64,000 bases of DNA from Bolinopsis microptera (Eukaryota; Ctenophora; Tentaculata; Lobata; Bolinopsidae). Under the pieces are notes generated by a model, which saw only the letters and a program-made list of their open reading frames with translations, searched no databases and had not been told where the DNA came from. Below, piece after piece: positions 3,001-30,540 of this stretch. Position 1 is the first letter of the stretch; each line of letters begins with the position of its first letter. Location of the stretch: assembly GCF_026151205.1 (NCBI RefSeq), contig NC_087075.1:4252359-4316358 (forward strand). The letters run 5' to 3'. The position numbers and the translations under genes were made by a program.

Positions 3001-6000
3001 CCTCTCAAATTGTGAAATATTTTATCACAAATGAGTTACAATTTCAGCGATTATGAGTGCCCCGAACGCTCTCTGGCTCTCTATCTGTTCGTTCCTAACT
3101 GTTGCCCCTGCCGACGGTATCCCCAAAAACTGGTCAGGTCAGATCATGGTTATCACCATTTTACTTTCATTACCATTACAATAGCTGTTTTAAATGATAA
3201 CTGGAAATAAATTATGTTGATGAATGATTAATACACTTATACAGATGTTTCAAGTGATTTTAATAGCTTTGATGTGCATGATGTACATTCTTACATTGTA
3301 CAATCTACATTATAACACGATATCCAGCTACTTGGGATATTAACACGTGCACAACCCAGCTACTTGGGATATTAACACGTGCACAACCCAGCTACTTGGG
3401 ATATTAACACGTGCACAACCCAGCTACTTGGGATATTAACACGTGCACAACCCAGCTACTTGGGATATTAACACGTGCACAACCCAGCTACTTGGGATAT
3501 TAACACGTGCACAACCCAGCTACTTGGGATATTAACACGTGCACAACCCAGCTACTTGGGATATTAACACGTGCACAACCCAGCTACTTGGGATATTAAC
3601 ACGTGCACAACCCAGCTACTTGGGATATTAACACGTGCACAACCCAGCTACTTGGGATATTAACACGTGCACAACCCAGCTACTTGGGATATTAACACTT
3701 GCACAACCCAGCTACTTGGGATATTAACACGTGCACAACCCAGCTACTTGGGATATTAACACGTGCACAACCCAGCTACTTGGGGTATTAACACGTGCAC
3801 AACCCAGCTACTTGGGATATTAACACGTGCACGTAACCCAGCTACTTGGGATATTAACACGTGCACGTAACCCAGCTACTTGGGATATTAACACGTGCAC
3901 AACCCAGCTACTTGGGATATTAACACGTGCACAACCCAGCTACTTGGGATATTAACACGTGCACAACCCAGCTACTTGGGATATTAACACGTGCACAACC
4001 CAGCTACTTGGGATATTAACACGTGCACAACCCAGGTCGGATCATGATAACCATATGGTGGATGATATGTCTGGTCATGGTCAGCATGTACACTGCCAAC
4101 CTGGCTGCTTTTCTGACAGGTTAACTTTCACTTTTGCTTTTATTTTCATGTGGTCAGCATGCATATACCACCAATTTAACAAGAAATGTTGCCGCTTTTC
4201 TTTTGTGGATGGCCGCTAAATTTCCCGATCCGTGATGGCCGCCCAGTTAATTCCATATTAAATTAGAAATACATTTCTATGTCATATGTAACACTAACCA
4301 TATGTTTATTGTTTATGCAACCTGATATAGTGATATGACACGGATCTGTGCAAAATGGTAATACTATAATTTACTAACTCGAAATAATATGCTATCAATT
4401 AGTGCCTATAAGCTAGTTGGATGAAATTAACGATTTGATCGGTTCAGCGTCGCGCGCCAATACCAATTTAATTCAGATTTCAGAATATTGCGCAAAATAA
4501 CTTTGCGGAGTGACAAACAAAATTTGGTTGCTTTACTGACAATGACATGGATTTGTTGAGCATCAATTTGTAGCTTTTACGTTAGAGTTATGGTGAGGGT
4601 CAATTTTCGGGGGGTCAATTGTCGGGGTGTAAATTGTCGAGGTGTAAATTGTCGGGGTGTAAATTGTCGGAGGGTCAATTCTCGGGGGGTCAATTGTAGG
4701 GGGGTCAATTGTCGATATAATTAATGGGCAATTTAGTTCATTTGTGTGGTATGTTCGCCTTAGTATCCACATTTAAACAAATAAAAAGCTATAACTTACA
4801 GAGAATATGTAGTCTAGGCTTACCTTTCATATAAAGTAAGTCTCATTCAAAAATATTGATATTTAACCAATTTATGGGCCGAAATCTATTAAATTTGGTG
4901 CGTATGCCCAAATTTGGGCAAATGGTTTTTGGCCCATAACTCAGTCATCTTTTGTCCAATCTTGATGAAATTTCATTTATGAGTTTAGGAGCCCACTAGC
5001 TACAACCTGGGGTTTCGACATGTTCAGGGTATTAGGTCAAATTGGGCCTAATTTGGACCAAATATGGGCGTGGCTGCACCGCGGGCACCGTTTGGCGGTT
5101 GGTGTCCGGGACCCCTCAAAAGTTCGGTCACCGGTCCTAGTTTGTTGAAATCAAACCCCCTATCTTGAAATCAAACCCCCTCCTTAATATATAATGTTAC
5201 GCTCAATGGACTCTGCAATCTATATTACAATCGTGGCAATTACGTCGCGACGGTCGTTTTCTTCATTAGGTTCAAGGTCGCAATATTTATTGCAGCGGAA
5301 AACATTAAAGTTTTAGCAGATTGTCCGGCTAAATCTCCCTTTATATGGTGTTACCAGGTTACATCTAGTCTCGTATTCTGTACAATAACAATGGCTCCAG
5401 AATTATAAAAATTATAGCTCGCCAGTGAACTATAGTTTTTATAGTTCCCTTAAATCACTCCAGCATTCTCACATAGCATACGTAACAGCTCCTTTTCCTT
5501 TGCGTGTGTAATGAAATAATCGCCTTCCTATATTATAGAATGTTTGAGTTAACTTTGTTTGTCGAATTTGCTCGCCCTATCTCTCTCTCCTCTCCTCCTT
5601 TCTTTGTTTTCTCTGTCCTGCAGTGATCATGCACGCCACGCCGAGGCCAAAACTTGCGGCGGAGGCGGCGTTTTTTACCTCTTTCCCTCAAAATTACTCG
5701 TGACTATCAAATTTCACTAGTTCTGTGACTCTGCACGTTTGACTCTGTGAGTTCATCTTTTTGTTGCTCTCCTTCAGTCGGCTGTTTTTCTTTCGCTCTT
5801 CAATTTTTGTAAATCTTCAGGATACAAGCTATAACTTTATGATATCTTTTTATCAACTTATTAAGTTCACAATGATTTCTAAACTTGGTCTGTTTTGTTC
5901 TACATCAAATAAAATTTTATCATTCACATATTAACACATCCCTACACGGGAATCGGTCGCGAGGGCGGAAGTCGCGAGGGCGGAGGTCTCGAGGACGGAA

Positions 6001-9000
6001 GACCCAAGGGCGTAGGACTCATGTGATCGACCTCCGCCCTCGAGTCCAACCTTTTAGGAAACTTCCGCCCTTGAGTCCTACGCCCTTGGGTCTTCCGTCC
6101 TCGAGACCTCCGCCCTCGCGACTTCCGCCCTCGTGTCCTATACCCGATATGTGATACACATATCGCATAAGCTAATTTATTCACGTTAAGCTGGCACTCA
6201 ATCATAACAGTTTAAAAACTTTTATAAATACCATCTTAGAAAGCAACGATGGAAGTCCAAACGATCATTATTAAGATAAAGGATGGTGATCCTCTGCTCG
6301 TGTCAAAAAACCTACTTACCAAGGATAGCCGTATGTTTACGTATCTAATAGAGGAATTAAAATATGATGAGCTTGATCTAGAGGATTTCTCAACTGAAAC
6401 AGTTTCCCTGTTTCTAACCCTACTAGATGACAGACAACTGGGTGAAATTGAAGATGGAATATTCAGAGAATTGCACAAAATAGCCAAAGTGTTTGAAGTC
6501 AACTGGTTGAGAGAAAGATGCTGCAATTGGTTAAAATGCAGAATGGACTCCATCGCAGAAAATAATGAAATAAAGTTCCTATTCGACGAATGCTGGTATA
6601 TTCTCAAAAAGTGGGAGGATAAAGAAATGACAAATGAACTGGTTTCAAGTTTGGCTCTGAAGGACAATTCATCGTTTATCTCAGAATATATGTCAGATCT
6701 TGACAAACTGGAGACAGGGCAGATAGATTTGCTAGTCAAACTTGGAAGAAGCAACACTGATCACTTCCTCCAAATCATTTTGCACAACTTGTCCGGTCAA
6801 AAAGTTTTGAATGAAAAAGTGAGACATCTTCTTGAAAACATAAATTTGGCGTTATGTTGTAAAAGAAATGAGGAGCTGTATCTTGAAGTGTTTGAAGTTA
6901 TATCGAACTTGTCCGGGATATCAGTTGCTGATCTGAAATCTACTCACCAACTCACGTTAGAAACTACAAGATTAACCAGTTCTAGAAGAGAAAAAATAAA
7001 ATCAGGAACATGTGTTGTGTATGATGCTAAGGAATATATTTCCCTTCTGAATAGTTGTAAAACATTGAATGATATCACTAAAGCTGTAGATAAAGGCCGC
7101 ATAACATCCATATTAGTGGTAGTTGATGTGTTGATAAGGATTTTCCTTGGTGATGCAGCTAACAAAGATCAAGAAACTGTTAAACTATTTGTGACTGCAC
7201 TCACAAATATTTGCAGTGTTAAAGAGCTACAAAAGGTATCTAGATATTATTTAGATATCATCATAACAGCTTTAAACTACTTTACTCTAGAACAATCAGG
7301 ACAGCTTATCACGCTGCTGAAGGAGTTGAAGAAGAACGAGACGTTCTGTACGCACCATGAGATCGTTACAATAAAACATCATAAAATAAATAAAGTAACA
7401 GCGGAAAAGGAGTACAAAATCCTGTTTAAATTCAAACATCCTGGAACAGGAACCTGCACAGAGTCTGATAGTACGTGCGGTTTTATCTTGAGAAATATTA
7501 GCCATGAAGGTAACAGTACCACTACACTGTGCACACAAGGTGAGGACTACAAGAACACAGGATTACATTATCATGATGTCATATCCGCACGTGACATGGA
7601 CTGGTATGATAAATATATAATATATAAATGGTATGATAAATACTCAGGTACCACACCTGCTGGTTACAAGGTAACAGTGGTAGGGAGGTGCAAGTGGTGG
7701 GAGGAGTGGCTACCAGCTGACATAACAGACTGGAAGTATGAAGCACGTTTTGTAGACTACAATGTTGCTGATTACTTGGTCGCTAAACGAAATTAGTGCT
7801 TTTCATACTTATTCTGTGAGATTTGACTCATTTTGACATAGTATTTCGTTTGTTAGACTCTGGATCAGTATACAGACAATTATCACTTTACCCGGTTACA
7901 AAAGCTGGGTCAGTAGATTGCAGTAATTTTGTAAATACCTTTAATTGTTTCATATTTTTGAAGAAGACAGATTATATAATGAATATCAACGATCAATATT
8001 TATTATATAGTTAGTTTACGATTATGTTTGAAATTTATTGCAGTTTTTGTTGTAACACTAACTCATGATTATGCTGGTATTATTAGATTTATGTCTTGGT
8101 GCAGCATACAAAAGTAACCATCATGTGTTTACTATTTACGTGTTTAATCTTATCCTGTGTTTTATTTCGTGTTAAATGTTATCTTGCACTTGTTTTAACG
8201 TAAGATAGATAACAGAAAAGGGGAGGAAGAGAAAAATAAAGGAGATAGTGAACACCTTTAATTGATACTATGTCCATCTTGAGAATTGACCCTGCTACCA
8301 CTTTACGTCTGGTATAATTGAGTGTTCTGATGAGTTCGTTTCTTTCTTTTTATCTGAGCTATAACATTTTCTGAAACCCTCTCCTCTTGTAGTAGATATG
8401 GTAAAACGTCACTAAACCTCATTATAATAGAGAAATCAGCTTGTATTTGCAAATATAAATCATGTCAGAAGCATTCTGATATGATGAATGGTTCTGAACT
8501 GCATTTCAGTTTCCAGTAAAGGTGTTGATATACGCTCAGTGGATTTAGTTTAACTGCATTTCAGTTTCCAGTAAAGGTGTTGATATACACTCAGTGGATG
8601 AGTTCTGATTTAGTTAAACTGCATTTCAGTTTCCAGTAAAGGTGTTAATATACACTCAGTTTAACTGCATTTCAGTTTCCAGTAAAGGTGTTGATATACA
8701 CTCAGTGGATGATTTAGTTTAACTGCATTTCAGTTTCCAGTAAAGGTGTTGATATACGCTCAGTGGATGATCTCCTGGGCCAACAAGAGTACGCTTTTGG
8801 CACAGTGGAAGGATCGATCACAGAGAATCTGTTCATCAATAGTGATGTAAGACATTAAGATTCCGATTCTATTACTACTATAGTTGATTCTATTACTACT
8901 AGTTGATTTTATTACTACTAGTTACTCTTCTAGCTGAGAACGACTAACAAGTCTTATTTGATATTTTAATTATTTTTAATTTTGAACAACAACCTATTAA

Positions 9001-11533
9001 TTAAGCAATTACATTTGTAGAACCCTGGCCTCCACCGCCACCGCTTTTCGTTTTTGCCCTTCTATTTCTTTTTTATCCTAAATTTTTAATTATCAGAATG
9101 CCAAGTCACTTTAATCCACCAAACAACCAGAACGCCAAATTACGGAAACTGTACGACCGTAGTGCATCAACTGAGTCCTATAAAGAAGGAGTTACACGGA
9201 TGAAGCTGGGAAAGTATATTTTTCTTTACGGTAACGGTCCTCTCGACCTAACCACCTCAATTAACTGCAATTTGGAAATAATTGGCGATGTCCTCGTAGA
9301 TTTCGGGTATGAAGAAATTATTGGTTTTTTGATAAATTTAAATTTGTTAAAAATCCATTTGAAAAAGGTATATGAAGAGGTGGAAATGAAATGTTACGTT
9401 TTACCAGTTATTGTTATTTCATTTGAATGACTGTTTCAGTGTTTCATTTTAGCTTCCAGTTATAATTCCTGCCAGAATAACAATTTTAACATTTTCAGGT
9501 ACGCATTTGCGTTTCAGATCGACTCTCCCTACATTGAACTTTTCAACAGAGAAATGCTGATCCTGCAGGAGAGGGGCATGATAAAGGACTTGTGGCAAAA
9601 ATTTGTTAAAGGTCAATTTTTACAATTAGCTCAGCTGCATTCATGGTCATCGTTCAGACAATTATTCGTTTACTTCCATTGATGGCTATGAAATTCAACC
9701 AACAGTTCAATAACTTGTACATCATCATTTTGATTTTAAGGCGTTAGTGCCGAGTAATGCCTCTGGGTAGTGCTCCTCAATCAATCAAATCATCAATTAA
9801 ATTATGAAATATTTATTGTTTACACAAACCATTCACATGGTTTACTGAACAGTTTGGGGAAAGGAAAATAGTGCCGTATAAATGGTGGAATACGGTATAT
9901 ATCACGGTTTTACTGTACTTGGTAAATCAAAATGAAAACGTACATACTATATATCGCAGTTTCAATTTGAAATTGTTTTCCTTTTCAACTTTTATTTTTA
10001 AAATGTTTAATCGTAATCATAAACATCAGGTCATTGCGACGAAGATGATGATTTTGATGCTGAAGCAGACAGTCTTGAAGTAGTCAACTTGCTGGGTTAG
10101 TAATTTAATATTATAAATTGATACGTATTTCTGACGTTTTCTGACAAATATGTTCATAAGGTCTAAAAATATAAAGTTTTAAATACTTCTGTCACAATTT
10201 CGGAATTTCTTATGTTTCTGATTGGGGATAAGTCTCCACTTAAAAACAAAATATGGATAGAATAAATTATGGATAAAATAAAGATAAAATAACCAAAATT
10301 CCAAAAATGTGACTTATGCACATTTACGAAAGATATCCGATTTTGTTTAGTGCAATTAATACACTAAAAGCTGTAAGCCTGTTAATTACCTACCGGACAG
10401 CAGGGGATCAAAAGAGCATAAGAAGCATAAAGCAACAAATCCACCAAACCGCGAGATAGATCCTTATGACAATTTTATGGCATTAAACTATACATAAAAT
10501 TTGTCGCAGATAATGCTATAATGGGAAAAATCGCGATTCCGTACATGCCGCGATTTCCTTTTGTCCCTGGTATGTTATAGAGTTATACACTTCCACAGAT
10601 TGACTTGCCACTAAAGCACTAAGGGCGTTATTTTACCAACTGGTTTTCAGAATTACTTATTAGATGGTAACTTATAGGTGGCAACTAGGTGGCAACTAGG
10701 TGGTAACTAGGTGGTAACTAGGTGATCACTAGGTGGTAACTAAGTGGTAACTAAGGGCGTTATTTTAACAAATGGCTTTCAGGACTACTCATTATTTGTG
10801 TTCCCCTCCTAGTCCTCGCTGCTTTAGTCTTTTTGCTGGAGATTCTCGCATCTCCTAAAAAGAAAAATGGAAAAAGATTGGTAAGTAAAAATAAATATAG
10901 CTTCTTTACTGGCCGCAGTTTTACAAAATATAGTTTATTAGTCTTGTTTCAGATGTCTTCATAATTAAATAATTAGGTCTCAACTTCCACTTCCACTTCC
11001 ACTTCCACTTCCACTTTCACTTTCACTTCCACTTCCACTTTCACTTTCACCTTTTCCTAACCAGGACATGGGAGATGCGATACAAGCAGTATTTGAGGAC
11101 GATCAGATGATACAAGCTAACAAAACATCTCAGCCTCTCGTGATATGTAGAGAGGACACTGGTGAGACAATAATCAATGTTGTGTGCTAACTCACTTAAA
11201 AAAATAGCCCCAATAAGGCGTAGCATAAACAGCAAATGAATTTTATCTTCAGATTAGAATCAAATTGTCACGAACGTTAACAATACACAGTTAAATACGT
11301 TACCGATAAGTTTTATCAGCTCACTGAGAGTATCTAAGAAAAAAAAATTCTTCAAGTTTCTTAAAAGACAGCTAAGTTTAACCTGTCCAGATCTCACATA
11401 CGAAGTACCCAGACCGGGCAGCTCCCTAGAGTACGTGAGTCCTGATTTTGATCAGTCAGTGTATGATAGGGAGGCCCTGTGGACACAGTCCCACAACAAA
11501 TCTACTCTTACTGAGACTGCTGATAATATTCTG
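1..11533 (+). CDS. Ionotropic glutamate receptor subunit, 16 exons, 5' end outside window
   Basis: Ligand-gated cation channel of the plasma membrane. Exons, all joining in phase: 1-137, 290-457, 613-738, 871-1060, 1468-1634, 2243-2406, 2726-2928, 3048-3137, 4036-4119, 8734-8846, 9131-9306, 9499-9611, 10030-10095, 10783-10880, 11065-11161, 11391-11533, about 711 residues. Order: end of the amino-terminal domain (GVLGLSPYLN); S1 with CYTGVSIDII and the ligand-carboxylate arginine in SHSREKVVNF; M1 (ILGGIVFFFAILYLLDRFSP, about 318-337); pore loop about 384-412; M3 with the family signature MYTANLAAFLT (about 432-442); S2 with YAFGTVEGSITENLF; M4 LLIICVPLLVLAALVFLLE (about 599-617); cytoplasmic tail. 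Odd points: the S2 position that normally holds a ligand-binding Glu/Asp reads FLYGNGPLDL, and the Q/R-site region reads SFLTVAPADG. The last donor (GTGAGT at 11534) is strong, so more exons may follow. The family is certain; the subtype is not assigned. Confidence 0.93.
1240..1430. repeat. 15-bp minisatellite carrying 11 TGACGTCA palindromes
   Basis: The unit is ttatgacgtcacaag, about 12 copies, in the receptor intron just before the S1 exon at 1468. Eleven copies contain TGACGTCA, the consensus CRE (CREB/ATF bZIP site). The open frame across it (MTSQ repeats) is a by-product of the repeat. Confidence 0.95.
1841..1971. mobile_element. Short palindromic MITE, mariner-like ends
   Basis: A 131-bp element in a receptor intron with imperfect terminal inverted repeats (tagggtgggccaaaagtcag at the left; complement of ggcccaccctgta at the right) and an inner inverted pair cccatacgttgg / ccaacgtatggg. 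TA at both borders suggests a Tc1/mariner-type target. A relative lies at 20246-20994. Confidence 0.7.
3324..4035. repeat. 32-bp minisatellite, about 22 copies, forming the acceptor of the M3 exon
   Basis: The unit is cagctacttgggatattaac plus acgtgcacaacc, nearly identical in all copies, and each copy holds the E-box palindrome CACGTG. The last partial unit (acaacccag) is the splice acceptor of the M3 exon at 4036. The intron starts with gtcagatcatggttatcacc, which resembles the M3 exon start gtcggatcatgataaccat, so the array lies between two related junctions. Confidence 0.95.
4120..4595. other. Intronic DNA, no gene seen
   Basis: First part of the 4.6-kb receptor intron between the M3 and S2 exons. 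AT-rich, with no exon-like frame and no clear repeat. Confidence 0.5.
4596..4715. repeat. Imperfect 15-17 bp tandem repeat
   Basis: About seven to eight diverged copies around ggggtgtaaattgtc / ggggggtcaattgtc within the same receptor intron. Confidence 0.8.
4783..5160. mobile_element. Dispersed repeat, truncated relative of the 11579-12545 element
   Basis: Long, strong similarity to 12108-12473: shared stretches include ttggtgcgtatgcccaaat, ttttgtccaatcttgatgaa and gggcaccgtttggcggttgg. The inverted partner arm and the terminal ggttcaccctga are missing, so this is a partial copy. It has no coding capacity. Confidence 0.8.
5161..5959. other. Upstream region of the nested BTB gene, no exon seen
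   Basis: Intronic with respect to the receptor and upstream of the BTB gene. It has a pyrimidine-rich stretch near 5577-5620 but no recognisable exon or promoter element. Confidence 0.4.
5960..6133. repeat. Perfect GC-rich inverted repeat, 62-bp arms, just upstream of the BTB gene
   Basis: The left arm 5960-6021 is the exact reverse complement of 6072-6133, with a 50-bp spacer. Each arm is a run of 15-bp units of the type cgcgagggcggaagt. It contrasts sharply with the AT-rich flanks and ends 115 bp before the BTB start codon. Confidence 0.95.
6249..7796 (+). CDS. BTB/POZ-domain protein, single exon, nested in a receptor intron
   Basis: An intact 515-residue frame in the same orientation as the host gene. 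Residues 1-100 look like a BTB/POZ fold: a strand-rich start (VQTIIIKIKDGDPLLVSKNL), the S-R-M-F-x-Y-L-I segment, then LDLEDFSTETVSLFLTLLDD and a leucine-rich helix ending LRERCCNWL. A helical BACK-like middle follows (about 100-350). The C-terminal 140 residues are different, rich in Cys, Trp and Tyr (GRCKWWEEWLPADITDWKYE), perhaps a beta-rich module I cannot name. BTB proteins commonly dimerise and serve as cullin-3 adaptors; that role here is inference. I chose the first ATG in a frame closed by a stop just upstream. The single exon inside a 4.6-kb intron suggests arrival by retroposition. A functional gene is likely because the frame is long and undamaged. Confidence 0.85.
   Translation: MEVQTIIIKIKDGDPLLVSKNLLTKDSRMFTYLIEELKYDELDLEDFSTETVSLFLTLLDDRQLGEIEDGIFRELHKIAKVFEVNWLRERCCNWLKCRMDSIAENNEIKFLFDECWYILKKWEDKEMTNELVSSLALKDNSSFISEYMSDLDKLETGQIDLLVKLGRSNTDHFLQIILHNLSGQKVLNEKVRHLLENINLALCCKRNEELYLEVFEVISNLSGISVADLKSTHQLTLETTRLTSSRREKIKSGTCVVYDAKEYISLLNSCKTLNDITKAVDKGRITSILVVVDVLIRIFLGDAANKDQETVKLFVTALTNICSVKELQKVSRYYLDIIITALNYFTLEQSGQLITLLKELKKNETFCTHHEIVTIKHHKINKVTAEKEYKILFKFKHPGTGTCTESDSTCGFILRNISHEGNSTTTLCTQGEDYKNTGLHYHDVISARDMDWYDKYIIYKWYDKYSGTTPAGYKVTVVGRCKWWEEWLPADITDWKYEARFVDYNVADYLVAKRN
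7797..8490. other. 3' flank of the BTB gene and intronic DNA, no gene seen
   Basis: AT-rich, no exon-like frame. Possible polyadenylation signals (aataaa near 8235) lie downstream of the BTB stop. Confidence 0.45.
8497..8772 (+). repeat. Five tandem copies of a splice acceptor plus the start of the S2 exon
   Basis: The block aactgcatttcag followed by tttccagtaaaggtgttgat and more of the exon start occurs with AG ends at 8509, 8564, 8629, 8675 and 8733. Only the last runs into the real exon (8734-8846). Entry at copy 4 reads into a stop after its exon-like segment, so the first four look like decoys. Confidence 0.95.
10519..10571. mobile_element. Fragment related to the hAT-like MITE at 51636-51784
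   Basis: gggaaaaatcgcgattcc, then ccgcgatttccttttgtccctg, share the unusual tcgcgatt core and the terminal ccttttgtccctg with the complete element. Only one end is preserved. Confidence 0.6.
10618..10790 (+). repeat. Duplicated M4-exon acceptor flanking an 11-bp minisatellite
   Basis: aagggcgttattttaccaac...ggttttcag (AG end 10650) and aagggcgttattttaacaaa...ggctttcag (AG end 10782) are near copies, and each is followed by a similar exon start (aattacttatta versus gactactcatta). Between them lie about six copies of gtggtaactag. Only the second leads into the M4 exon. Confidence 0.9.
10981..11052. repeat. Hexamer repeat acttcc / actttc
   Basis: Roughly twelve copies directly before the acceptor of the tail exon at 11065; it also serves as its polypyrimidine tract. 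Confidence 0.9.
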
Positions 11534-11578
11534 GTGAGTACTACATGGATTATGTTTGATACATTTTGTTTCCTTTAA

Positions 11579-12545
11579 GGCTGGGGTTCACCCTGAATTT
11601 TTTGTGAAACTTGGTTTCGAGATAGCAGTTGACCAATTTTCATCAAGATTGGACAAAAAATGACTGAGTTATGAGCCAAAAACCATATGACCATATTTGG
11701 GCATACGCACCAAATTTGATCGATTTTGGCCCATAAATTGGTCAAATATCAATATTTTTGAATGAAACCAACTTTATATGGAAGATAAGCCTATACTACA
11801 GATTCTCTATGATTATCAGCTCAATATCTACCTAACTGAAAAATGCCCGGCAAATTTCAGAATTTGGCCGCCAAATTTTTTTAAAGGCCTAACTCAAAAT
11901 TCCATATTAAAACTTAAGGTCGAAATGCGATTCTACGTTGATTCTGAAAATTTCATGTAAAAATATTGAAACCCTATTGAGTTCTATTGTTTTGAACGAA
12001 ATCAGTTTCGCAAATATCGCGAACTGAGATATGGGCGATTTTGTTCATTTTTTGCAATTAATTGAACACAGAATCCACAGTTAGGTAGATATTGAGCTGA
12101 TAATCATAGAGAATCTGTAGTATAGGCTTATCTTCCATATAAAGTTGGTTTCATTCAAAAATATTGATATTTGACCAATTTATGGGCCAAAATCGATCAA
12201 ATTTGGTGCGTATGCCCAAATATGGTCATATGGTTTTTGGCTCATAACTCAGTCATTTTTTGTCCAATCTTGATGAAAATTCATATACTTGTTCAGGGGA
12301 CCACTAGCTACAAGTAGAGCACCTAAAATCTGGGTTTTGGGCATGTTCAGGGTATTTGGCTAAATTGGGCCTAATTTGGATCAAATATGGGCGTGGCTGC
12401 CCCGCAGGCACCGTTTGGCGGTTGGGGTCCGGGACCCCCTCAAAAGTTCGGTCACCGGTCCTAGTTTGTTGGTCAACTGCTATCTCGAAACTAAGTTTCA
12501 CAAAAAAATCAGGGTGAACCCCCCCCCCCCCCCCCCCCCCCCCCC
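11579..12545. mobile_element. TTAA-flanked foldback transposon, non-autonomous
   Basis: TTAA at 11575-11578 and 12546-12549 bracket a 967-bp element whose ends are inverted repeats: ggggttcaccctga at the left and its complement next to a poly-C run (about 12519-12545) at the right. Long inverted arms (about 11581-11840 against 12077-12510) share ttatggcccaaaatcgatca-type sequence. There is no transposase frame. A TTAA target and TIRs recall piggyBac-type MITEs. Confidence 0.8.
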
Positions 12546-12758
12546 TTAAGGTTATCTTTCTGTAGCTTTATAAGTTATCAAATAAATCGTCTTACTGCCA
12601 TTTGTAGTGATTCCTACAGAGGAGTCATCGGAGTTTTATACTTTCATAATTCATTGAAGTCATGTTAACTTCAGCCACTTTTCACCATAAGCCATAAGCT
12701 TTCAATCATTTTAAGATGTTTTAAAGCTTTAATTAAAGTTGTCTGCCCCAAATTTCAG

Positions 12759-15700
12759 GCACATGTAGCTATCATAACAGATGCTAGTTACACAGGCTGG
12801 GGTGCAACTAACTTAAACACTAAGAAAAGGTTTGCATTTAAACTGTAAAGAGTCTTTCCACTTAAGAATTTTAACGCTTTCTTCTACCTCTTCCACCTTT
12901 CTCCCACAAGTAAACACCAAATAACACGCTAATAACAAGCTAATTACAAGTTATTACACACTAATTGCCTGATAGTAACCCACTAATTGTTACAGTGTAA
13001 GGGGTTACTGGAGGGAGGAAGAAAAAGCTCTACCTCAACACATCTTGGAACTGAAAGCTGTGTATTTGTCCCTCAAGATATACTCTAAGTTCCAGCAAAA
13101 CGTGCACATGCAAGTCAACCTTGATGATCAGGTGAAATAACACGCTAATAACAGTACGCTAATTACACGCTAATTACACGCTAATTGCCCGCTAATTACC
13201 CACTAATTACCCACTAACTACCCACTAATTACCCACTAATTACCCACTAATTACCCACTAATTACCCACTAATTACTCACTAATTACCCACTAATTACCC
13301 ACTAATTACTCACTAATTACCCACTAATTACCCACTAATTACCCACTAATTACCCACTAATTACCCACTAATTACCCACTAATTACCCACTAATTACTTG
13401 ATGATCAGGTGAAATTCATTCATTAATTTGCACGGACTGTTTTTCGGATATCAGAAATATCTTCTTACAAAAAATCAAGTAACTATGACTGTTATTTTTT
13501 TCATTTTTTAAAATTTGCATTGTAGATTATAGAACTTACTACATGCGGGTTCGCGGTAAATCGGGGTTCGCGGTAAATCGGGCTTTAATTGTTTGTTTAC
13601 ATTATACATCAACATGTTAAGCCCTATTTATATTTAGGAGAAGGAGATGGCCGGCCGTGGTAAATCGGGGTTTGCGGTAAATAGGGGCGCGGAAAAATCG
13701 TGGTTTAACTGTGCTGTACTTTTTAAACAAAAACTAAATAATAATATTGTTCTCAAAAGTTAAATTATAATTGTTTTTAATCTCAAGAGTCGAGTTGGAA
13801 TCAAAATCAAGACCAAAGAAAAACAGTTTCACTCAGATTTCAAAGTTTAAATCTATACACTTTATAGTTTAGACGTTTAATCACTTTAAAACCTTCACTT
13901 AGCAGTTATATTTATCCATGTAGCACATGACAGCTCTGCAACAAGTCTTTTCCTTTTTCTTCCCGTCCTTTAGTCGGGTACAGTGGTGATTGTACGTAAC
14001 ACAACTCCACGGATCTGAAAATAACTTTGTCAGATTTGATGCTTCATATTAATATTTAGAGGTGATCAGAAAGACATGAAGGGGCTGTGTATCAATTAAA
14101 AATCTGCATCCATTTGAATTGCGTTATTTACCGTAGCTAAGGCTTGATCCGCACTTTTTTATATTGTTGAGATATGCTAGACAAGAGCAATCCATTACGT
14201 ATATCTCGGGCCCAGAGCATTTCGTAAACTTGTCTACGCTGATAGCGTGTTCCGCCTCAAGTCCTGGAAAATAAGATTTGGTTTCGAGAAATTCTAAAAA
14301 CTGCATTTATTAATGTGCACATTTCATTTATTGATTTATCCTAAAAATTTGTGTTTTCCTTTCTAGCAAAGACATCATCGGTATCCAATCAAAGCCTAAT
14401 GAACCTCATTAATACACGCTAACGCCTTACTCTTGATCAGATTGGGTGACGAGATCACTAATTGAGTGCAAATATCACTGACTGAGTGCTCGGATCACAT
14501 ATCCGATGGATTTTAAAATGGTCATAACTCAGCCATATTTTAACCAATGAACTTGAAACTTTTGGAAAAGTTTTCAATTATCAAGCCAAATGTGTGCAAA
14601 AAATTTGGAGTTCTTAGCTTAAAGCGTTCTCATTTTATGAAGACAATAGTGAAAAAGAGGGAGTGTCACGCCACGCCCACTGTAATTGGGCGTGGCTTAC
14701 GAAACTTTCAGAAAATCTAAGTTTGACCCATATCTATAATCTCTGAAATTTTGGTGCAATTTGGAGACGAATTACGTGAGCTATTAAGAGGTTGCGTGTG
14801 GGTAGTCACTTATGGGCCACTCTTATAGAAGTAAATTGCATTCTGTACTTTTCTCATCGATTATTATAGGTGGTTCTAGGGTCCTAATCTTGAAAACCCA
14901 CGAAATTGTTTTCTTGCCCTTGGGAGAGTCCACGGGGTTGACACCATTTCTCAGGGAGTACCTTCGAGAGGACTTAATGTAGGTGATGCCACCACAATCT
15001 GGTAAAACAGATATGAAGTGAAGGGATCAACTTTATAAATCAACTTTATAAGAAATAAAACTTACGGTTTATAATTTGTAAAAATGTAGATCAAGATGAG
15101 AGTCATTAACAGAATTTCAGCTGTTTACTAACCAGAACGCTTGACACACCCAGTCTGTGCTTGTTCTAAATCGTCGTAATCGGAAACTCCAGATCTGTTT
15201 CTTCCCCTTAAATATTTTCCACGGTGTTTCTCCCAGATTCCTGAAAATATTTACCAGCCGTTAAAGGACGCACGGACAAGGATCTTGACAAATATGATAA
15301 CAATTTAGTTCTGACTCTATAGAAATGCTTGGTCATGACTTACCGGAGTCAGCTGTTACTGCAACAATTATCAAAGCTAGTGCGACCAGAGAACACATTC
15401 CTTGACTGCTCCGAAACAAAACAATAGTATAAACAAAGTCACGTTTAGTTTGAAAATAAATCTATTTATGTGATCATTGATAAACTTTTGAAACTTCCAA
15501 AGATACAATCATACAATGGCCATAAACATTTAACAAATACTATTCGATCGAAACTTAATTCAACAATACATCTCGAGATTTGTTTATATATTAGAACTAC
15601 ACAATAGCATGTTTCGAAGCAGCTCCCCAAAATGTATCCGGGTAAACTAACGACTGTTAATAACCTTTCTCCAACAGCGGCGTACAGTTATTTAGTTTCA

Positions 15701-18623
15701 TCAATACTGATCTGATCAGAGAAAATCAACAAATCAAATTAATCAAATTTTCGTAATTCCATTGAGTTCCTTTTCAACGGAACTGCAGGACTTTTGATGA
15801 TGATATTATAATTTGCAGGGGTGTTCTGGATTAAACTTTAAATTGTATCTTTTGTTAGAGATTGTACTCTTACTCGTAGAGTGCAGTAGTAACTATGGTA
15901 ACGCTTTTGTTAGAGAATGTTGATTATATTTGATGCCAATGATCCTGGCATAATGCTGTCGTGAATGGCACCGGACTACCGCGTTGTTTCTTTCACCGCT
16001 CGTACCTTCATATTATTATTGCAGAAAAATGAACTCAATTATTTATTGAAATTCATGTCTATAATTTGATTAAAATTCTCTACTGTTTCTTAGTAACTGG
16101 TATCCAATCAGATAAAAAGCCATCTACAAAGTATGTATTGCAGAATGCAGATGTATATTATATGATAACATTACCTTAAATGGAAGTGTAACTATGGACA
16201 TGGTAACACTACCATATCAAGATTAATGTTTCCCGAAAATCAAACAACGAATGAGTACCACAAATTTCCAACAACATCTTTACAACATCGGTAAAATATT
16301 TTCGTCCATCCTCAGTTGGGGTAAAAACTCCAATAAAAACACTACCATATACGGTAACACACTCTTCCTCGTAGAGCGCAGTGGTAACTATGGTAACACT
16401 ACCATATACGGTAACACACTCTTCCTCGTAGAGCGCAGTGGTAACTATGGTAACACTACTATATACGGTAATACACTCTTCCTTGTAGAGTGTAGTGGTA
16501 ACTATGGTAACACTACCATATACGGTAACACACTCTTCCTCGTAGAGCGCACTAGTAACTATGGTAACACTACCATATACGGTAACACACTCTTCCTGGT
16601 AGAGTGGAGTGGTAACCATGGTAACACTACCATATACGGTAACACACTCTTCCTCGTAGAGCGCAGTAGACGTTATCAACGGTACAGACAACAAGAAAAG
16701 TTCGCAACCAGTTTCCTTCCTAAAACGTAAGATCTGGGAGCAGGTCCTGCAGTTCAACATAACGTTAACAGCCCGGTACGTTAGCAGCATATATTACCAC
16801 CTAGTTACCACCTAGTTACCACCTAGTTACCACCTAGTTACCACATAGTTACCACCGTAAGATCTGGGAGCAGGTCCTGCAGTTCAACATAACGTTAACA
16901 GCCCGGTACGTTAGCAGCATATATTCCTGTTACTTATTGATGTGGGTTACTAGGTTACTTTAGATAGGTCTACTTGATTGTTAAGTAATTGTTTGGTAAA
17001 ATAAGAAATAGTCAATCATACCGTTTACTTGATTGTTTAGTAGTTTTTAATATTAGTGTAGTAATAAATAGTAAATATCAACTAACAATGATAAGTAATA
17101 AATTCTGAATCACACCGTTTACAGGTACATGGATGGTGGGAAGAGCATCACAGCTAACACCATGAGTAGATTACCCGTCGACTCCACCGATTGGACCATC
17201 ACTAATGAGCTGTACGATACAATCTGCAGCCACTTTGATGTTCAACCTGAGATTGACCTCTTTGCTTCGTGGATCACTTCTAAATGTCCGCTTTTTGTCA
17301 GCAAGATGGACGACCCGAAGAGCTTTGCTGTGAACGCTTTTAAGCAGAAGTGGGACTCCTGGGACTGTGTGTACTGCTTCCCTCCAATCAGCGAGTCTGT
17401 TCTCAGCAAGGTAAAATAATTACCACCTAGTTACCACATAGTTACCAACTAGTTACCAACTAGTTACCACCTAGTTACCACATGTGTGTACTGCTTCCCT
17501 CCTATCAGCGAGTCTGTTCTCAGCAAGGTAAAAGGATTAACAAATAGTAACCAAATAATTACCACCTAGTTACCACCTAGTTACCAACTAGTTACCACCT
17601 AGTTACCACCTAGTTACCATCTAGTTACCACATGTGTGTACTGCTTTCTTCCCGTGAGTCTGTTTTCAGCAAGGTAAAATCATAAAACTTCTGTTTTAAA
17701 AGCTGTCCTCTGTCATACTTATATCACTGTAGTAAGCTGGTGATAAACTAAACTGATAAGCAAATATAACTTAAAGTACAGACTGTTCTAAAAACCTAAC
17801 TAAATCCTCGACCCTAATAGAGAACCTCACAACAGGTGTCAGCTCAGGTTGCCAGGTCCTACTGCAAGGTCTTGCTCATAATCCCCTGGTGGACAAGAAG
17901 CAACTGGTTTGTGGAACTACAGAAACACAAGATAGCAGAGGCGTACCCTTTGGGGAGGAAGGTAGAGCTGTATCATCCCCACGACCGACTAATGGCGCAT
18001 CCTCAGGTTACCACCTAGTTACCACCTAGTTACCACCTAGTTACCACCCAGTTACCACCTAGTTACCACATAGTTACCACCTAGTTACCACCTAGTTACC
18101 ACGTACCCTTTGGGGAGGAAGGTAGAGAAGTATCATACCCACTACCGACTAATGGCGCATCCTCAGGTTACCACCTAGTTACCACCTAGTTACAACCTAG
18201 TTACCACCTAGTTACCACATAGTTACCAACGACCGACTAATGGCGCATCCTCAGGTCATCATCCTTTTGTGAATTCTGAAATGATTTTGATTTATTGGAG
18301 TAATAATCATATCTTGATTAGGTACTGAATACTGATTATGAAAAACAATATTCGACCAATTTTACAAAGACTTGATTGGAATTTTTAAACATTTATTCTG
18401 ATTGCGGGAAATATTAATTCTTAACCTGCAGGGGCCCCGGTTGAAACTAGCAGCTATTCTGTGCAGACCTGGTGGGAGGAGGACACAGGGAGGGTTCGTA
18501 CCGGAGGGGCAGAGTGACACTAGTTTAGTTACAGGGCCGGAAACCCTGCCTGGGAGGGGTCCTGATACCATGAATGTCGCTATCAATGATATCAGTGGCA
18601 ATGAATTCCTGAATAGACGTTAA
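12759..18623 (+). CDS. DIRS-like pol (RNase H and downstream) gene, six spliced in-phase exons
   Basis: Exons 12759-12829, 12996-13131, 16660-16775, 17125-17410, 17836-18006 and 18432-18623 join without a stop into 323 residues ending at TAA 18621-18623. The product matches the C-terminal half of tyrosine-recombinase (DIRS-type) retrotransposon pol: RNase H signature IITDASYTGWGA, then HILELKAVYLSLK and NLDDQSAVDVIN, the ANTMSRLPVDSTDW segment, PEIDLFASWITSKCP, AVNAFKQKW and CFPPISESVLSKV, and KVLLIIPWWTRSNWFVEL. The RNase H carboxylates D8, E42 and D67 are present, but the last Asp (usually AD..SR) is Asn119. No reverse transcriptase domain is seen upstream in the window. Several introns hold minisatellites and copies of splice junctions. 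Two readings: a domesticated, intron-bearing host gene, or the 3' part of a longer transcript. The first donor (GTTTGC) and the fifth (GTTACC) are weak. Confidence 0.8.
13133..13415 (+). repeat. 11-bp minisatellite taattacccac ending in a copy of exon end plus donor
   Basis: More than twenty copies of the 11-bp unit follow exon 2 of the DIRS-like gene. The true junction cttgatgatcag/gtgaaat (13120-13138) reappears at 13397-13415 on the far side of the array. Confidence 0.95.
13416..13898. other. Intronic DNA, no gene seen
   Basis: Contains a short repeated motif ggttcgcggtaaatcggg near 13548-13690. No exon-like frame. Confidence 0.4.
13899..15398 (-). CDS. Cysteine-rich secreted protein, nested antisense in the DIRS-like gene
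   Basis: Exons in transcript order: 15398-15344 (ATG at 15398-15396), 15240-15133, 14998-about 14898, 14263-14132, 14014-13899 (TAA). Exon 1 encodes a signal peptide, MCSLVALALIIVAVTA. Exons 2-3 carry GCVKRSDCGGITYI, RRYSLRNGV and KGKKTISW, resembling a cysteine module common in cnidarian and amphioxus secreted proteins (C..GIT....Y.LR.G....S.....SW). Exons 4-5 form a basic, cysteine-rich tail (CSGPEIYVMDCSCLAYL; KEKTCCRAVMCYMDKYNC). Phases agree for 1-2, 2-3 and 4-5. The exon 3 to 4 joint does not fit with either visible donor (14897 or 14901), so an extra small exon or another donor is likely, or two genes are present. Function unknown; extracellular by its signal peptide. Confidence 0.65.
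15861..15905 (+). repeat. Outlying copy of the 57-bp acceptor unit
   Basis: gtactcttactcgtag, then agtgcagtagtaactatgg, matches the unit repeated at 16339-16665, about 450 bp upstream of the array. Confidence 0.75.
16339..16665 (+). repeat. 57-bp tandem array, six copies, each holding a splice acceptor
   Basis: Units contain cactcttcctcgtag followed by agcgcagt, at 57-bp spacing (gtagag at 16371, 16428, 16485, 16542, 16599 and 16656). The last unit provides the real acceptor for exon 16660-16775 of the DIRS-like gene. Each unit also carries gtaactatggtaac, which matches the RFX X-box consensus. Long frames on both strands here come from the repeat. Confidence 0.95.
16727..16925 (+). repeat. 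69-bp duplicated exon end and donor around a minisatellite
   Basis: 16727-16795 (end of exon 3 and its donor gtacgt) is repeated at 16857-16925. The two are separated by five or so copies of the 11-bp unit ctagttaccac. Confidence 0.95.
17366..17680 (+). repeat. Three copies of exon-4 end plus donor, separated by 11-bp minisatellite
   Basis: tgtgtgtactgcttccctcc continuing to ctcagcaag/gtaaaa occurs at 17366-17416, 17483-17534 and, shortened and diverged, 17633-17680. ctagttaccac units fill the gaps. The first is the in-frame exon end. Confidence 0.95.
17940..18255 (+). repeat. Three copies of exon-5 end plus donor, separated by 11-bp minisatellite
   Basis: Copies at 17942-18008, 18103-18176 and a short one at 18229-18255, all ending cgcatcctcag/gt. 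ctagttaccac units separate them. Confidence 0.95.
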
Positions 18624-19178
18624 CGTGTTTTTTTGCTTTACAAACTCCGTTATAGGCTGTTGCTTTTAAATTTGATGTAATTAGAACAGGGCTAAAAAAG
18701 TAATTTTAAAAGATGTGGTCCGATTCACGAGCTCTACAAACTGAACATGAAGGGTTGGATACTGCCGGATTTGTTGACTTCATAAAACTCTATGGCGGTC
18801 GATAGTATGTGTTAGCCGATCTGATCAAGTACCTCTGGGCTGCCGATACAGATTGGCTGGAATAATTATATTCTTAGTCTCTTTTCCTAACATTCTCAAC
18901 ATTTTATATCTCATTGGTTATAATTTTGTCCGATTGTTATTTTTTCTTGCTGATCTGAGTTGGGACTAGGATTTTTATCAGCCATATTTTTACAATTATA
19001 TGATATAATAAATTGTTTCGTCTGTTTTTTGTTGTTATTGGGGTTCGGTTAGGGTTAGTCCCCCTTCGTTCTGAAGTAACGTTACCTCGGAAGGTTTTTG
19101 TACCACTTGATCAAAACCTGACCTGCTCGTGACATGTCAGGTGGAACTGTACCACGTGTTTACTACCAGAACATCATA
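18624..19178. other. Intergenic, no gene seen
   Basis: Downstream of the DIRS-like stop. Short open stretches near 18710-18860 have no recognisable domain. A first copy of the gaagtaacgttac motif lies near 19070. Confidence 0.4.
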
Positions 19179-19206
19179 CCTTCCGAAGTAACGTTACTTC
19201 GGAAGG
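19179..19206. repeat. Perfect 28-bp palindrome
   Basis: Centred on aacgtt with arms ccttccgaagtaac / gttacttcggaagg. A diverged version lies at about 19065-19098 and a half-copy at 19267-19282. Confidence 0.95.
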
Positions 19207-19282
19207 GTTCAGCAGCCATAATCGGAACCCTAGCTCTCTCTCTCTCTCTCTATTTGTGGTTCTCGAAACCTTCCGAAGTAAC

Positions 19283-20039
19283 ACAAAAACTGCCCGAGTA
19301 ACACCCTAACTCATAAAATCTTGGTTTACCTCTAGTAGCACTTTGATCGTTTTGAACCGATTTAAAACCGTGTTCAGTGTTGATCGGCTGCAAAACCTTA
19401 AAATACCATACTGGACAATGTACTACACAAATTAACTGTAAATAATATATTACACTACACAGAGAGTCACCTGTAAGTTTGGGTTGAGTAGTAAAAGTGC
19501 AATAACCCCACTCTCCCACACTCTCACACTCTCCCACTGTATGACCCGTACTCGCACATTGGTCAAATTGTTACAAATCTATATCCTTACCGTTAACAAA
19601 TATTTAGCTACCTTATCAGACTTTATTTGAACGGAAATTAATTGGATGCTGAAGGCCCTATAGCGTTCAAATAAAGTTCGTTCAAATAAAATTTCCGTCC
19701 AACTGTCAAAGTCCGTTGATTTTTTCCCAAAAGTATTCCACTACGAACTTAGTTGTCCAGGATATGACGACTTTTTAATTTTTTCGATTTCAATTTTTAT
19801 CATCAACATTTTACTGTTTAACGACTACTTTTTTTTGCTTACTGTATTAAAAATCGATCGAAAATGTATCTTTAAATTGTTTAAAAACGCCCAAAAAGAT
19901 ATCAGATATTTTTTGAATGCCTCCGAGCGTTCATTTTAATGTCCGTCAAACATTATACGTTTACCTATAAGTATAATTTCCGGTAAAAAAAAACGTCCGA
20001 TAAAGTTTTTTTAATCATTTGTGCCCAGTTGTAACGATA
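19283..20039. other. Intergenic, no gene seen
   Basis: AT-rich. Near 19622-19705 there are inverted and direct copies of a ttcaaataaa / tttccgt motif. No coding exon recognised. Confidence 0.4.
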
Positions 20040-20240
20040 AGCATGTATCGACTATTAGTGGATCTCGACTATTAGAGGATCGTGATTATTAAAGGATCGT
20101 GACTATTTAAGGATCGTGAATATTTAAGGATCTCGACTATTTAAGGATCGCGACTATTAAAAATAGAGGATCATGATTCATGACTATTAGAGGATCGTGA
20201 CTATTAGAGGATCGTGACTATTATAAAGGATTGTGACTAT
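20040..20240. repeat. Imperfect 18-20 bp tandem repeat
   Basis: About nine to ten diverged copies around gactattagaggatcgt. Confidence 0.9.
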
Positions 20241-20245
20241 TCAAA

Positions 20246-20994
20246 AGTCATTGGGCATACGTTGGTCTTAGCTCCGCCGTGTTTTATATTTGAGAGCTGT
20301 TGCTTTGCAGATAGCATACTGTACCTTCTGGTTCGAAGATTTTGTGGTCAAAATTTGAAAATTCGAATATTTTAGACCACGCCCATTCATTATTAAAACA
20401 CCTATATTGTTCTCTCTGAACATGCTGGACGTCTAATTTTTTCAGAGACGGTAGATTATTACTATTAGTAACATGTTGCATCTGATTAAAAAAATTACGT
20501 GAAACAGATTTGAAACGAATGAGTTATCAAGCATTTAGTTTATCTTGTTAGCAAAATTGATTCGGTGATTATGTCATTATGTGACACCTTGACACAACAC
20601 TTTGGTTAACGGGGTGACCTTATCAGTTTATCACGTGATCAGGTAAGCCAATCACCTGATCATACGTAATGAATAAACTCGTTATGCTTCGTATCTCAGC
20701 CATCTGAGAAGCTACAACTCTAATTTTTTCAGGACAAACGTAATCCAAATGACCAAACACAATTCAATGAAATGTAGCTCGATCCGACTATCCAAATTAT
20801 CAAATAAATGCAAAAATGAACCTTCATTTGAAAAAATGAACTAGAACTCGAATATTTTTCGATTTGACAAATTCCCCAAACCAGTGGTGGTAGTAAGTCA
20901 TACCAAAAAGAATTATTTCAATTGGGCACTCAGTGACTGAGCTATTAAATTCAAGGCCAACGTATGCCCAATGACTTTTGGCCTACCCTGTATG
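20246..20994. mobile_element. Copy of the 1841-1971 MITE family interrupted by about 620 bp
   Basis: The left part (caaaagtcattgggcatacg to gttgctttgcag, ending about 20310) and right part (gtgactgagc... to cctaccctgta, about 20932-20994) match the two halves of the short MITE, split inside gctttgcag/tgactgag. The middle is AT-rich without a transposase frame. Either an insertion into the MITE or a longer parent that gave rise to the short form. Confidence 0.65.
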
Positions 20995-21889
20995 CTGTAT
21001 TTATCGTGCCTTGGACGAATGTTTCTTTGCAATATTCTAGTTCTTTTTGATCTTTTCACTTCCATTTTTTGTAATATGAGATAATATTTTTTATCAGCAG
21101 GGTCCTGTGATGCAAATTTCAACATTAATAAAATTCCATATTTCGGTCGGAAAAATAACTTAAATATTTCTTGTGCAATTTTTTCAACGTACATACTATA
21201 ATAATAATTATATTATATACGGGGGGGGGGGGGGGGGCAGTGGCGTTACAAAGAGCCCCGCTGACCCGCTGTGCCTAGGGGGACGCAAAATCGCATCGTT
21301 TGAATGTGAGACAATTTTGAAAAACTTAACTGCCATGCAGTACTAGCAAAATAAGCAGATATTTTTGATATTTTGCCGGCGTATCCTCTAAATTCACCTA
21401 ATTTTTCTAATTTTAGGGAGGATACCGCTATTTGTAAACACCTCCAGGATACCGCTATTTGTAAACACCTCCAGGATACCCCTATTTATATTATAATACG
21501 CGTTGCTCTGATAACGCTCTGATAACGCCACTCATTATATAAGCGCTGTCCTCTGATGTATCGCGGTCACAAAATTTTTTGTGATGCATGACTGCGGTAC
21601 AGTCACAGAACACAGAATGACAAATTCTTATCAGTTGTTCACGCTCAAAGTAGGTATAGGTAACAAAATGACACGCAATATCTTGGGAAAGCTTGTGATA
21701 AGAAGATTAAATTAGAGAAGTTGATTCCTCGGGACAAGTTAAAAGATAATAGAGCTGCAGCTAGGGAGTTACTCAGGTGACAACTCAACTGATAGTATCA
21801 AATTACCTGCTTATCATGCCATACTACTCTTCCTTCTTTTTCAGAACAGTTTGTGCAAAAAGTGATAACTTATTATGTGAACGACCCCT
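20995..21889. other. Intergenic; poly-G run and short repeat, one weak exon candidate
   Basis: A G-run lies near 21221-21237, and about three copies of aggataccgctatttgtaaa around 21418-21490. The frame about 21671-21777 reads KLEKLIPRDKLKDNRAAARE and ends near a possible donor, but I cannot place it in a gene. Confidence 0.4.
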
Positions 21890-22690
21890 AACATTTTTTG
21901 TTTTTAAGTAACACCCTGGCCTCATTTTCTGTTTTTAAACACCCTTTGTTTTTAACTAACACTCTGTTTTTAACTAACACTCTGTTTTTAACTAACACCC
22001 TTTGTTTTTAACTAACACTCTCTGTTTTTAACTAACACTTTCTGTTTTTAACTAACACCCTTTGTTTTTAACTAACAGTCTCTGTTTTAAACTAACACTT
22101 TCTGTTTTTAACTAACACTCTGTTTTTAACTAACACCCTTTGTTTTTAACTAAAACTTTCTGTTTTTAACTAACACTCTGGTTTTAACTAACACTTTGCT
22201 TTTAACTAACACTCTGTTTCTAACTAAAACTCTCTGTTTTAAACTAACACTCTCTGTTTTTAACTAACACTCTCTGTTTTTAACTAACACTCTCTGTTTT
22301 TAACTAACACTCTGTTTCTAACTAACACACTCTGTTTTTAACTAACACCCTTCGTTTTTAACTAACACTCTGGTTTTAACTAACACTCTCTGTGTTTAAC
22401 TAACACTCTGTTTCTAACTAACACACTCTGTTTTTAACTAACACCCTTCGTTTTTAACTAACACTCTGGTTTTAACTAACACCCTTTGTTTTTAACTAAC
22501 ACTCTGGTTTTAACTAACACTCTGCTTTTAACTAACACTCTGTTTCTAACTAAAACTCTCTGTTTTAAACTAACACTCTCTGTTTTTAACTAACACTCTC
22601 TGTTTTTAACTAACACTCTGTTTCTAACTAACACACTCTGTTTTTAACTAACACCCTTTGTTTTTAAATAACACTCTGGTTTTAACTAAC
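21890..22690. repeat. 17-20 bp minisatellite tttttaactaacactctg, about 40 copies
   Basis: A variable-length array upstream of the saposin gene. Its unit also occurs inside the longer cassette that follows, so the array probably arose from part of that cassette. Confidence 0.95.
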
Positions 22691-22990
22691 CCCCAAATCC
22701 TTGTGTAGTTTTGGAAATTGAAGAGGGAGTACAAATTGTTTTAACAAACACCCTTTTCTCCTAGCGTAGCCTGAAATGTTTAAAGAGGAGTACAAAATTG
22801 GGTTTTAAAATAACACCCTTTCCCCTTAGGGAAGTGGAAATTTGAAAAGTGAGTACAAATTTTTTTTAAAACTAACACCCCCCTATCCCCTTAGTGTAGC
22901 TGGTAATGTTTAGAGGATACAAATTTGGGTTTTAAAAACCCCCCCTTTATCTCTTGTGTAGCTGGTAATGATGAGAGGAGTACTAATTGG
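22691..22990 (+). repeat. About five decayed copies of the saposin gene's 5' edge
   Basis: A 60-66 bp cassette (tttaactaacaccc, then cttgtgtag, then a purine-rich segment and gagtacaaattg) recurs at about 22701, 22761, 22821 and 22891. The final version is the real junction ctcttgtgtag/ctggtaatgatgagagg at 22951-22979 that carries the start codon. The earlier copies have lost the ATG context. Confidence 0.85.
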
Positions 22991-30084: not shown

Positions 30085-30540
30085 TATTTACTCAATTCAC
30101 TATTATCTACTCAATTCACTAAAATAAATCCTTGTGTTTATACTCAATTCACTAAAATAAATCCTTGTGTTTATACTCAATTCACTAAAATAAATCCTTG
30201 TGTTTATACTCAATTCACTAAAATAAATCCTTGTGTTTATACTCAATTCACTAAAATAAATCCTTGTGTTTATACTCAATTCACTAAAATAAATCCTTGT
30301 GTTTATAATAATCAATTCAATAAAATAAATCCTTGGGGTTTATACTCAATTCACTAAATAAACCCTTTGAGTTTTAAAAACCAAATTCACAAAAATTTAA
30401 ACCCTTGTTTTTATCCCCAAAATTCACTAAAATAAACCCTTGTTTTTTTAATAATTTAAAAATTCACTAAAATAAAACCCTTGTGTTTAACGTCAATTAA
30501 AAAAAAAATTAAAATTCCTTGTTTTTTAAACTTTACAATT
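30085..30540. repeat. 32-bp tandem array, clean then degraded
   Basis: Units of actcaattcactaaaataaa plus tccttgtgttt are exact from 30110 to about 30310, then acquire extra bases in homopolymers (aaaccctttgagtttt, ccccaaaattc). The change marks the onset of poor sequence. Confidence 0.95.

Follow-up and report, generated by a model that had tools for sequence, protein, structure and literature searches.

Splice-junction copies and a dispersed minisatellite in introns of the ctenophore Bolinopsis microptera: a possible repair-based route to longer and new introns

Where new spliceosomal introns come from is a matter of dispute, recent gains being scarce, and the stretch of DNA considered here raises the question of how introns may be lengthened or newly made. 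It comprises 64,000 nucleotides of the ctenophore Bolinopsis microptera (NC_087075.1, positions 4,252,359 to 4,316,358 of the forward strand; hereafter the window), in which minisatellite arrays within introns are accompanied by extra copies of the adjacent splice junction, either acceptor plus exon start or exon end plus donor. An initial annotation of the window had proposed that duplicated junctions seed repeats and so lengthen introns, as a continuing process. Are these junction copies real, how far do they reach, and what might have produced them? The copies and their arrays are real and extend past the window, many of them share one dispersed 11-bp unit, and at one locus two introns were apparently born.

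Within the window, 21 introns (42 junctions) were modeled by reading frame and GT-AG ends and, for the receptor gene described below, by comparison with a paralog (L050); they range from 119 to 4,614 bp with a median of 349 bp, arrays counted in. Each junction was represented by a 40-nt query (30 nt of exon and 10 nt of intron) scored against its own intron, the other junctions being scored against that intron as controls. A score of at least 15 was reached by six of the 42 junctions and by none of the 1,680 mismatched pairings, so that the comparison of own and mismatched introns proposed in the initial annotation comes out far above chance; 12 of the 42 junctions outscore all 40 of their controls. 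The six high scorers are acceptor 8733, donor 13131 and acceptor 16659 (the two ends of a single intron), and donors 16775, 17410, and 18006; acceptor 10782 (score 12, best control 10) and donor 4119 (score 12, best control 11.5) remain under the threshold. The identical test in L050 placed one of 18 junctions at 15 or above, against none of 288 controls.

The features listed in the initial annotation are present in the sequence at the positions it gave, and its "unrelated genes" are three coding regions, namely an ionotropic glutamate receptor, a region resembling a DIRS retroelement, and a saposin-like gene. Of the eight cases that it called clear, five have the layout copy, array, copy (10618/10750, 13120/13397, 16726/16856, 17366/17633, and 17942/18102), and their parts are given below (a slash within a motif marks the exon-intron boundary; arrays were called by Tandem Repeats Finder, TRF).

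10618 to 10662, plus strand: first copy of acceptor plus exon start, with the under-threshold score given above for acceptor 10782.
10675 to 10753, plus strand: 11-bp minisatellite TAGGTGGTAAC (TRF).
10750 to 10794, plus strand: second copy, which holds the real acceptor (the exon begins at 10783; flank comparison).
13120 to 13138, plus strand: first copy of exon end plus donor (LDDQ/gtgaaat; junction test and flank comparison).
13159 to 13397, plus strand: 11-bp minisatellite CTAATTACCCA (TRF).
13397 to 13415, plus strand: second copy of exon end plus donor, within the intron (flank comparison).
16726 to 16795, plus strand: first copy of exon end plus donor (ITLTAR/gtacgt), 70 bp (flank comparison and junction test).
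16794 to 16856, plus strand: 11-bp minisatellite TTACCACCTAG (TRF).
16856 to 16925, plus strand: second copy, 70/70 identical to the first; a few bases at the ends are shared with the array.
17366 to 17680, plus strand: three copies of exon end plus donor (SESVLSK/gtaaaa), between which two 11-bp arrays are set; the coding exon directly adjoins the first copy.
17942 to 18256, plus strand: copies of exon end plus donor at 17942, 18102, and 18229 (partial), with arrays at 18007-18102 and 18167-18228.

Identity between copies ranges from 70/70 (16726/16856) to clear divergence (the copy at 17633), and the array of the last case starts right at the donor, CAG/GTTACC. The remaining three of the eight cases are arrays whose unit itself carries the junction:

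8497 to 8764, plus strand: five copies of acceptor plus exon start (AACTGCATTTCAG/TTTCCAGTAAAGG...), the unit containing the junction.
16338 to 16667, plus strand: 57-bp array of six units carrying acceptor plus exon start, CTCGTAG/AGCGCAG or close to it.
22691 to 22990, plus strand: degenerate units of about 61 bp with an acceptor-like GTGTAG and the start-codon region of the saposin-like gene (SapB_1, E 3.9e-10).

In the first of these arrays, the last copy (8721-8764) is the real junction, with a score of 40 against a best control of 11.5 and an acceptor, TTTCAG/TTTCCAG at 8733/8734, judged by frame and paralog; in the second, the real junction is likewise the last unit (16659/16660); and in the third, the best copy scores 20.5, above all 500 shuffles, the copies being degenerate and near poor-quality sequence.

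The 11-bp unit GTTACCACCTA, searched as an exact dimer, occurs at 571 places in the genome (370 forward and 201 reverse), with none for the reversed control, and among the matches listed these cluster at C2:10.59-10.78, C3:20.59-21.16, and C4:4.26 and 6.29 Mb. The exact dimer of CTAATTACCCA has a single other place, C9:2476240, and a CAGG-anchored pattern has two, both within the window; in a check on telomere origin, 14 contigs did not show the 11-bp unit in their opening 120 bases, although a contig need not begin at a chromosome end. The dispersal bears directly on the order of events in the initial annotation, by which duplicated junctions seed repeats and lengthen introns; spelled out, a junction would first be duplicated in tandem, and slippage at the duplicate would then seed a local minisatellite. 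The three arrays that are repeats of the junction itself favor that order, as does the first modeled intron of L050, with a copy of acceptor plus exon start and no GTTACC array seen, but the recurrence of an identical 11-bp unit at many unrelated places is not what local seeding would give, and the claim that duplicated junctions seed repeats is not supported as a general rule. Local seeding fits 8497, 16339, and perhaps 22691, not the rest, and overall we regard the junction-first order as unlikely.

To follow the layout beyond the window, 27 loci were assembled, none of them picked for its genes: all 21 that occur among the 100 listed dimer places (L001, L002, and L026-L044) and six (L051-L056) from two other pattern searches, L051 holding the sister unit CCCACTAATTA. 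In 18 of the 27, the array lies between host copies of at least 19 bp, 16 of them by a score of at least 14 (L002, L026, L027, L030, L034, L036, L037, L038, L040, L042, L043, L044, L051, L053, L055, and L056) and two below that score by eye (L032, 20 bp; L052, 45 bp). Ten of the 27 (L035-L041 and L054-L056) lie in one zinc-finger gene cluster and so are not independent; the layout is also present in other genes on C2, C3, C4, and C9. Against shuffled flanks, copies flank 13 of 90 arrays in the window, L001, L002, and 193 kb of unselected sequence (0.2% in shuffled flank pairs), two of the 13 being a coding repeat or simple repeat (window 59460 and L015 7677), and 17 of 36 arrays in L001, L002, and L026-L044 (1.9% shuffled), one of which, L035, matches paralogous exons instead; L001 and L002 enter both tests. 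Within the unselected sequence, the layout stands at an exon end in L006 on C1 (no Pfam match; the exon is presumably ABHD17-like) and at the end of a repeat-rich frame in L007, and L018 has an 18-bp pair that is apparently non-coding. Beside the arrays, exons pass the Pfam cut-off at L030, L031, L035, L036, L037, L044, and L054, have matches below it at L001, L029, L033, L038, L039, L041, L042, L055, and L056, and have no credible Pfam match at L026, L027, L028, L032, L034, L040, L043, L051, L052, and L053. An assembly artifact would be conceivable where the window looks unpolished (about 25.3-29.3 and 38.3-41.0 kb), but the layout recurs at many separate loci and some copies differ at a few sites (65/67 identical at L002, 68/70 at L043), so these are not assembly echoes, and an artifact is very improbable.

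Outside the window, junctions were read by eye from open frames, several of the exons having no Pfam support, and on that reading 12 of 22 pairs clearly span a junction (two at L002, the first at L036, L037, L043, two at L044, L051-L053, L055, and L056). Three more likely span or abut one (L034, L038, and L040), three are ambiguous (L026, the second at L036, and L042), and four lie off junctions (L027, L030, L032, and L035). Several arrays start exactly at a donor, namely at L043, twice at L044, at L053, and at window 18006.

An indication that the process might found introns comes from L002, where a coding stretch is interrupted by two arrays. The presumed introns of 480 and 144 bp are each bounded by a duplicated exon piece with AG/GT, and joining at these sites leaves a single open frame (..ELRKRR/RLAKEV.. 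and ..NEALTR/FVEKK); the 3' end of the second nearly copies the end of the preceding exon. Judged from the sequence, this is the apparent birth of two new introns, and it agrees for both with intron gain by tandem genomic duplication of AGGT (PMC3443670; this and the other cited papers are represented here by excerpts, and our comparisons extend to those excerpts). As in that model, the duplicated AG/GT could supply donor and acceptor together and leave the coding sequence unchanged, whereas the L002 introns are filled by an array and not by duplicated exon alone. The initial annotation had invoked the AG/GT model for the window, and there it does not apply to the copies at 13120, 16726, 17366, and 17942, which by the gene models lie inside longer introns with the acceptor elsewhere and are not bounded by a duplicated AG/GT.

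What could place one minisatellite between copies of so many host sequences? The same 11-bp unit at unrelated junctions argues for an array that entered by copying, in all likelihood in the same event as the duplication. The duplicated pieces measure 12-77 bp (the figure of 92 for 17942 counts letters of the array as well), the array ends have no fixed phase, and extra filler is seen by eye at L027, L042, L051, and L056; together with the common unit and its clustered places, which copying from nearby would predict, these traits speak for an error-prone repair of breaks in which filler is copied in. L040 speaks for it too: the locus also holds a paralogous exon (87.4% identity across 191 bp) with the piece present once and no array, a comparison that covers the exon side. 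With a little more confidence than doubt, we propose that break repair copies minisatellite DNA as filler and duplicates its target, and that selection retains what splicing removes. A gene would break, often no more than some tens of bases from a splice junction; error-prone, template-switching repair would copy a minisatellite of the GTTACC or GGTAAC family, often a nearby one, as filler, and the same repair would duplicate some 12-77 bp of the broken sequence to give copy, array, copy. Where a junction falls within the duplicated piece, splicing would continue at the outer copy, the inner copy would become intron, and the intron would lengthen; where the break is exonic and the piece contains AG/GT, donor and acceptor would arise together as a new intron. 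Slippage may later alter the array length, and exchange between copies may add further units of copy plus array. From the arrangement of the copies, and by comparison with new introns of Daphnia (PMC4202315) and repair capture in primates (PMC2671141), we infer that a break occurred, by which route it was repaired, in which order the steps came, and how splicing proceeds throughout.

A mobile element resembling an introner, carrying the minisatellite and inserting with target duplication, would also account for the dispersed unit, the target duplications, and the use of AG/GT at L002. The constant ends or terminal inverted repeats of introners were, however, not seen by eye at the arrays, whose edge phase varies and which may include filler, and the duplications of 12-77 bp contrast with introner target duplications of 3-9 bp (PMC9860276), and we consider such an element quite unlikely. 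A further idea is that a spreading satellite, though no transposon, acts in the manner of an introner. Read on either strand, the 11-bp unit looks like a splice site, with GTTACC or GGTAAC as donor and CTAG as acceptor, a likeness that might also cause junctions to be targeted, so inserted copies would tend to be removable by splicing wherever they are pasted, and each copy might seed nearby splice sites by microhomology; this we find doubtful.

Several results weigh against break repair near junctions as set out above. Nine of the 27 loci have no copy of at least 19 bp (L001, L028, L029, L031, L033, L035, with a copy of 16 bp only, L039, L041, and L054). No empty site was found on the intron side. 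The enrichment of splice motifs is moderate: outside the window, six of 21 pairs reach p<0.05 (combined p 5e-5, without L052), and the five window pairs have a combined p of 0.12. Both copies contain AGGT in 12 of 27 pairs, where 7.0 would be expected (p 0.018); the excess is modest, as we would predict if the usual outcome is a longer intron and only a minority of cases create one. By a codon-usage classifier that is itself weak, coding potential near 29 family arrays exceeds that at random places (p 1e-4) and barely exceeds that near 32 other arrays (p 0.049), with scores above 5 in 8/29 and 10/32, respectively. The duplications, up to 77 bp, are also longer than the 4-21 nt of the published repair cases (PMC2671141). 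Finally, short introns and selection against exonic damage would yield many junction copies even without junction targeting. Insertions would then fall anywhere and exonic hits be lost, with junction copies as a by-product, in keeping with the four pairs off junctions, the coding proximity hardly above that of other arrays, and the short median intron of the window; on the other side stand the 12 outside pairs that by eye clearly span a junction, the arrays that start exactly at a donor, and junction copies at the edges of introns of 3.5 and 4.6 kb. Insertion without targeting appears rather unlikely to us; it is compatible with the insertion mode of the repair reading, so that the two do not exclude each other.

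Comparable structures are known elsewhere, and mirages in Adh were reportedly described by Canestro et al. in 2002. In amphioxus, mirages are minisatellite-like tandem duplications of exon-intron boundaries, found in Adh3, the globins BflGb6/BflGb9, troponin C, and PGBD5, including a transposon-derived gene; splicing is reportedly undisturbed, and they have been suggested as a source of new introns (PMC3087553, PMC3902484). Here too, tandem copies of 5' or 3' boundaries lie in introns (in the window, at six of 42 junctions against 0 of 1,680 controls), and at 8497, 16339, and 22691 the unit itself is the boundary; in five of the eight clear window cases, by contrast, the boundary copies are held apart by a minisatellite that is distinct from them and dispersed, and the host belongs to another phylum. 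In Daphnia pulex, new introns come with direct repeats 4-12 bp long that have been interpreted as traces of staggered breaks (PMC4202315). Common to both are an insert set between direct repeats of exon sequence (here at L002, L044 at 702-731, and L053) and later internal repeats, whereas the direct repeats here measure 12-77 bp and the insert is a shared minisatellite. With introners (PMC9860276), likewise, similar sequence recurs at the edges of many exons and is accompanied by target duplication; here no transposon ends were seen, the duplications are longer and variable, and splicing is deduced from sequence. Repair-mediated capture in human and other primates (PMC2671141) shares the proximal donor, the filler, and the target duplication; it has no tie to introns in that source, and the insert here is tandem. 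Among the matches listed from open-licence papers, the layout was not found in print for ctenophores. The closest idea in print is the amphioxus mirage, together with the part in intron gain suggested for it, and what is probably new here is the dispersed minisatellite between the copies and the ctenophore host. If introns are indeed made or lengthened through a minisatellite, copies identical over up to 70 bp would offer many datable events in a lineage far from amphioxus and Daphnia, for which published chromosome-scale relatives allow presence and absence to be compared.

Whether the process continues can be addressed with the receptor gene, whose best solved relative is 4zdm_A (101.6 bits; 80.7 bits for the Mnemiopsis receptor ML032222a). 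Its neighboring paralog L050 (C4:4237900-4244900, minus strand) has nearly identical intron positions, yet among the modeled introns the junction copies of the two genes stand at different ones, and the L050 intron after ..HSDV carries a distinct array, about 1.5 kb long. These differing copies bear out the claim that the process is continuing. Two weaker cases also lie in the receptor:

3048 to 3137, plus strand: receptor exon ending ..NWS(G) at donor 3137/3138 (80.6% protein identity to L050 over 31 residues).
3138 to 4035, plus strand: intron, mostly a 32-bp array (3324-4035, TRF).
9095 to 9139, plus strand: two short copies of acceptor plus exon start (CAGAATGCCAAG and CAGAACGCCAAA), with the real acceptor at 9130/9131.

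As single tests, both beat shuffles (p 0.0005 for 3138/4036 and p 0.006 for 9095/9128), but neither is among the junctions scoring at least 11. The opening bases of the intron at 3138, GTCAGATCATG, resemble the start of the next exon, GTCGGATCATG, and this left copy continues in frame from the exon (NWSGQIMVITI); in our reading, the intron of the paralog lies 5 nt away in another phase, and the arrangement makes an intron gain possible.

The copy in the first modeled intron of L050 is accompanied by a larger flanking duplication. Ten of 39 receptor matches in the genome lie in stop-free open frames of at least 900 residues, the window gene and its neighbor being intron-rich. An uninterrupted 515-aa frame at 6246-7790, possibly a nested gene, lies within the 4.6-kb receptor intron (no Pfam family at E 0.1), and by eye the same dispersed repeat appears at 4850-5150 and 11580-12550 of the window and at 480-715 of L030.

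The second coding region completes the description of the window:

12757 to 18600, plus strand: intron-split coding region that we take to be DIRS-like (a Pfam match to Dam at E 4.4e-4, which falls short of the curated cut-off).

Among the best candidates, its exon 17126-17410 has no further genome match beyond itself and its own end copy; if relatives of the region are intronless, its introns would be gains. Scans with Rfam at the gathering threshold and for tRNAs gave no match. By eye, the stretches 25300-29300, 30300-31800, 36000-36500, and 38300-41000 look unpolished, with homopolymer runs doubled or collapsed, unlike their surroundings, so that statistics there are unsafe. At 42460-44050 lies a large, foldback-like inverted repeat whose halves are reverse complements by eye, and at 58830-61829 a minus-strand frame of 1000 residues includes an 18-bp coding repeat of about 55 units (59460-60442).

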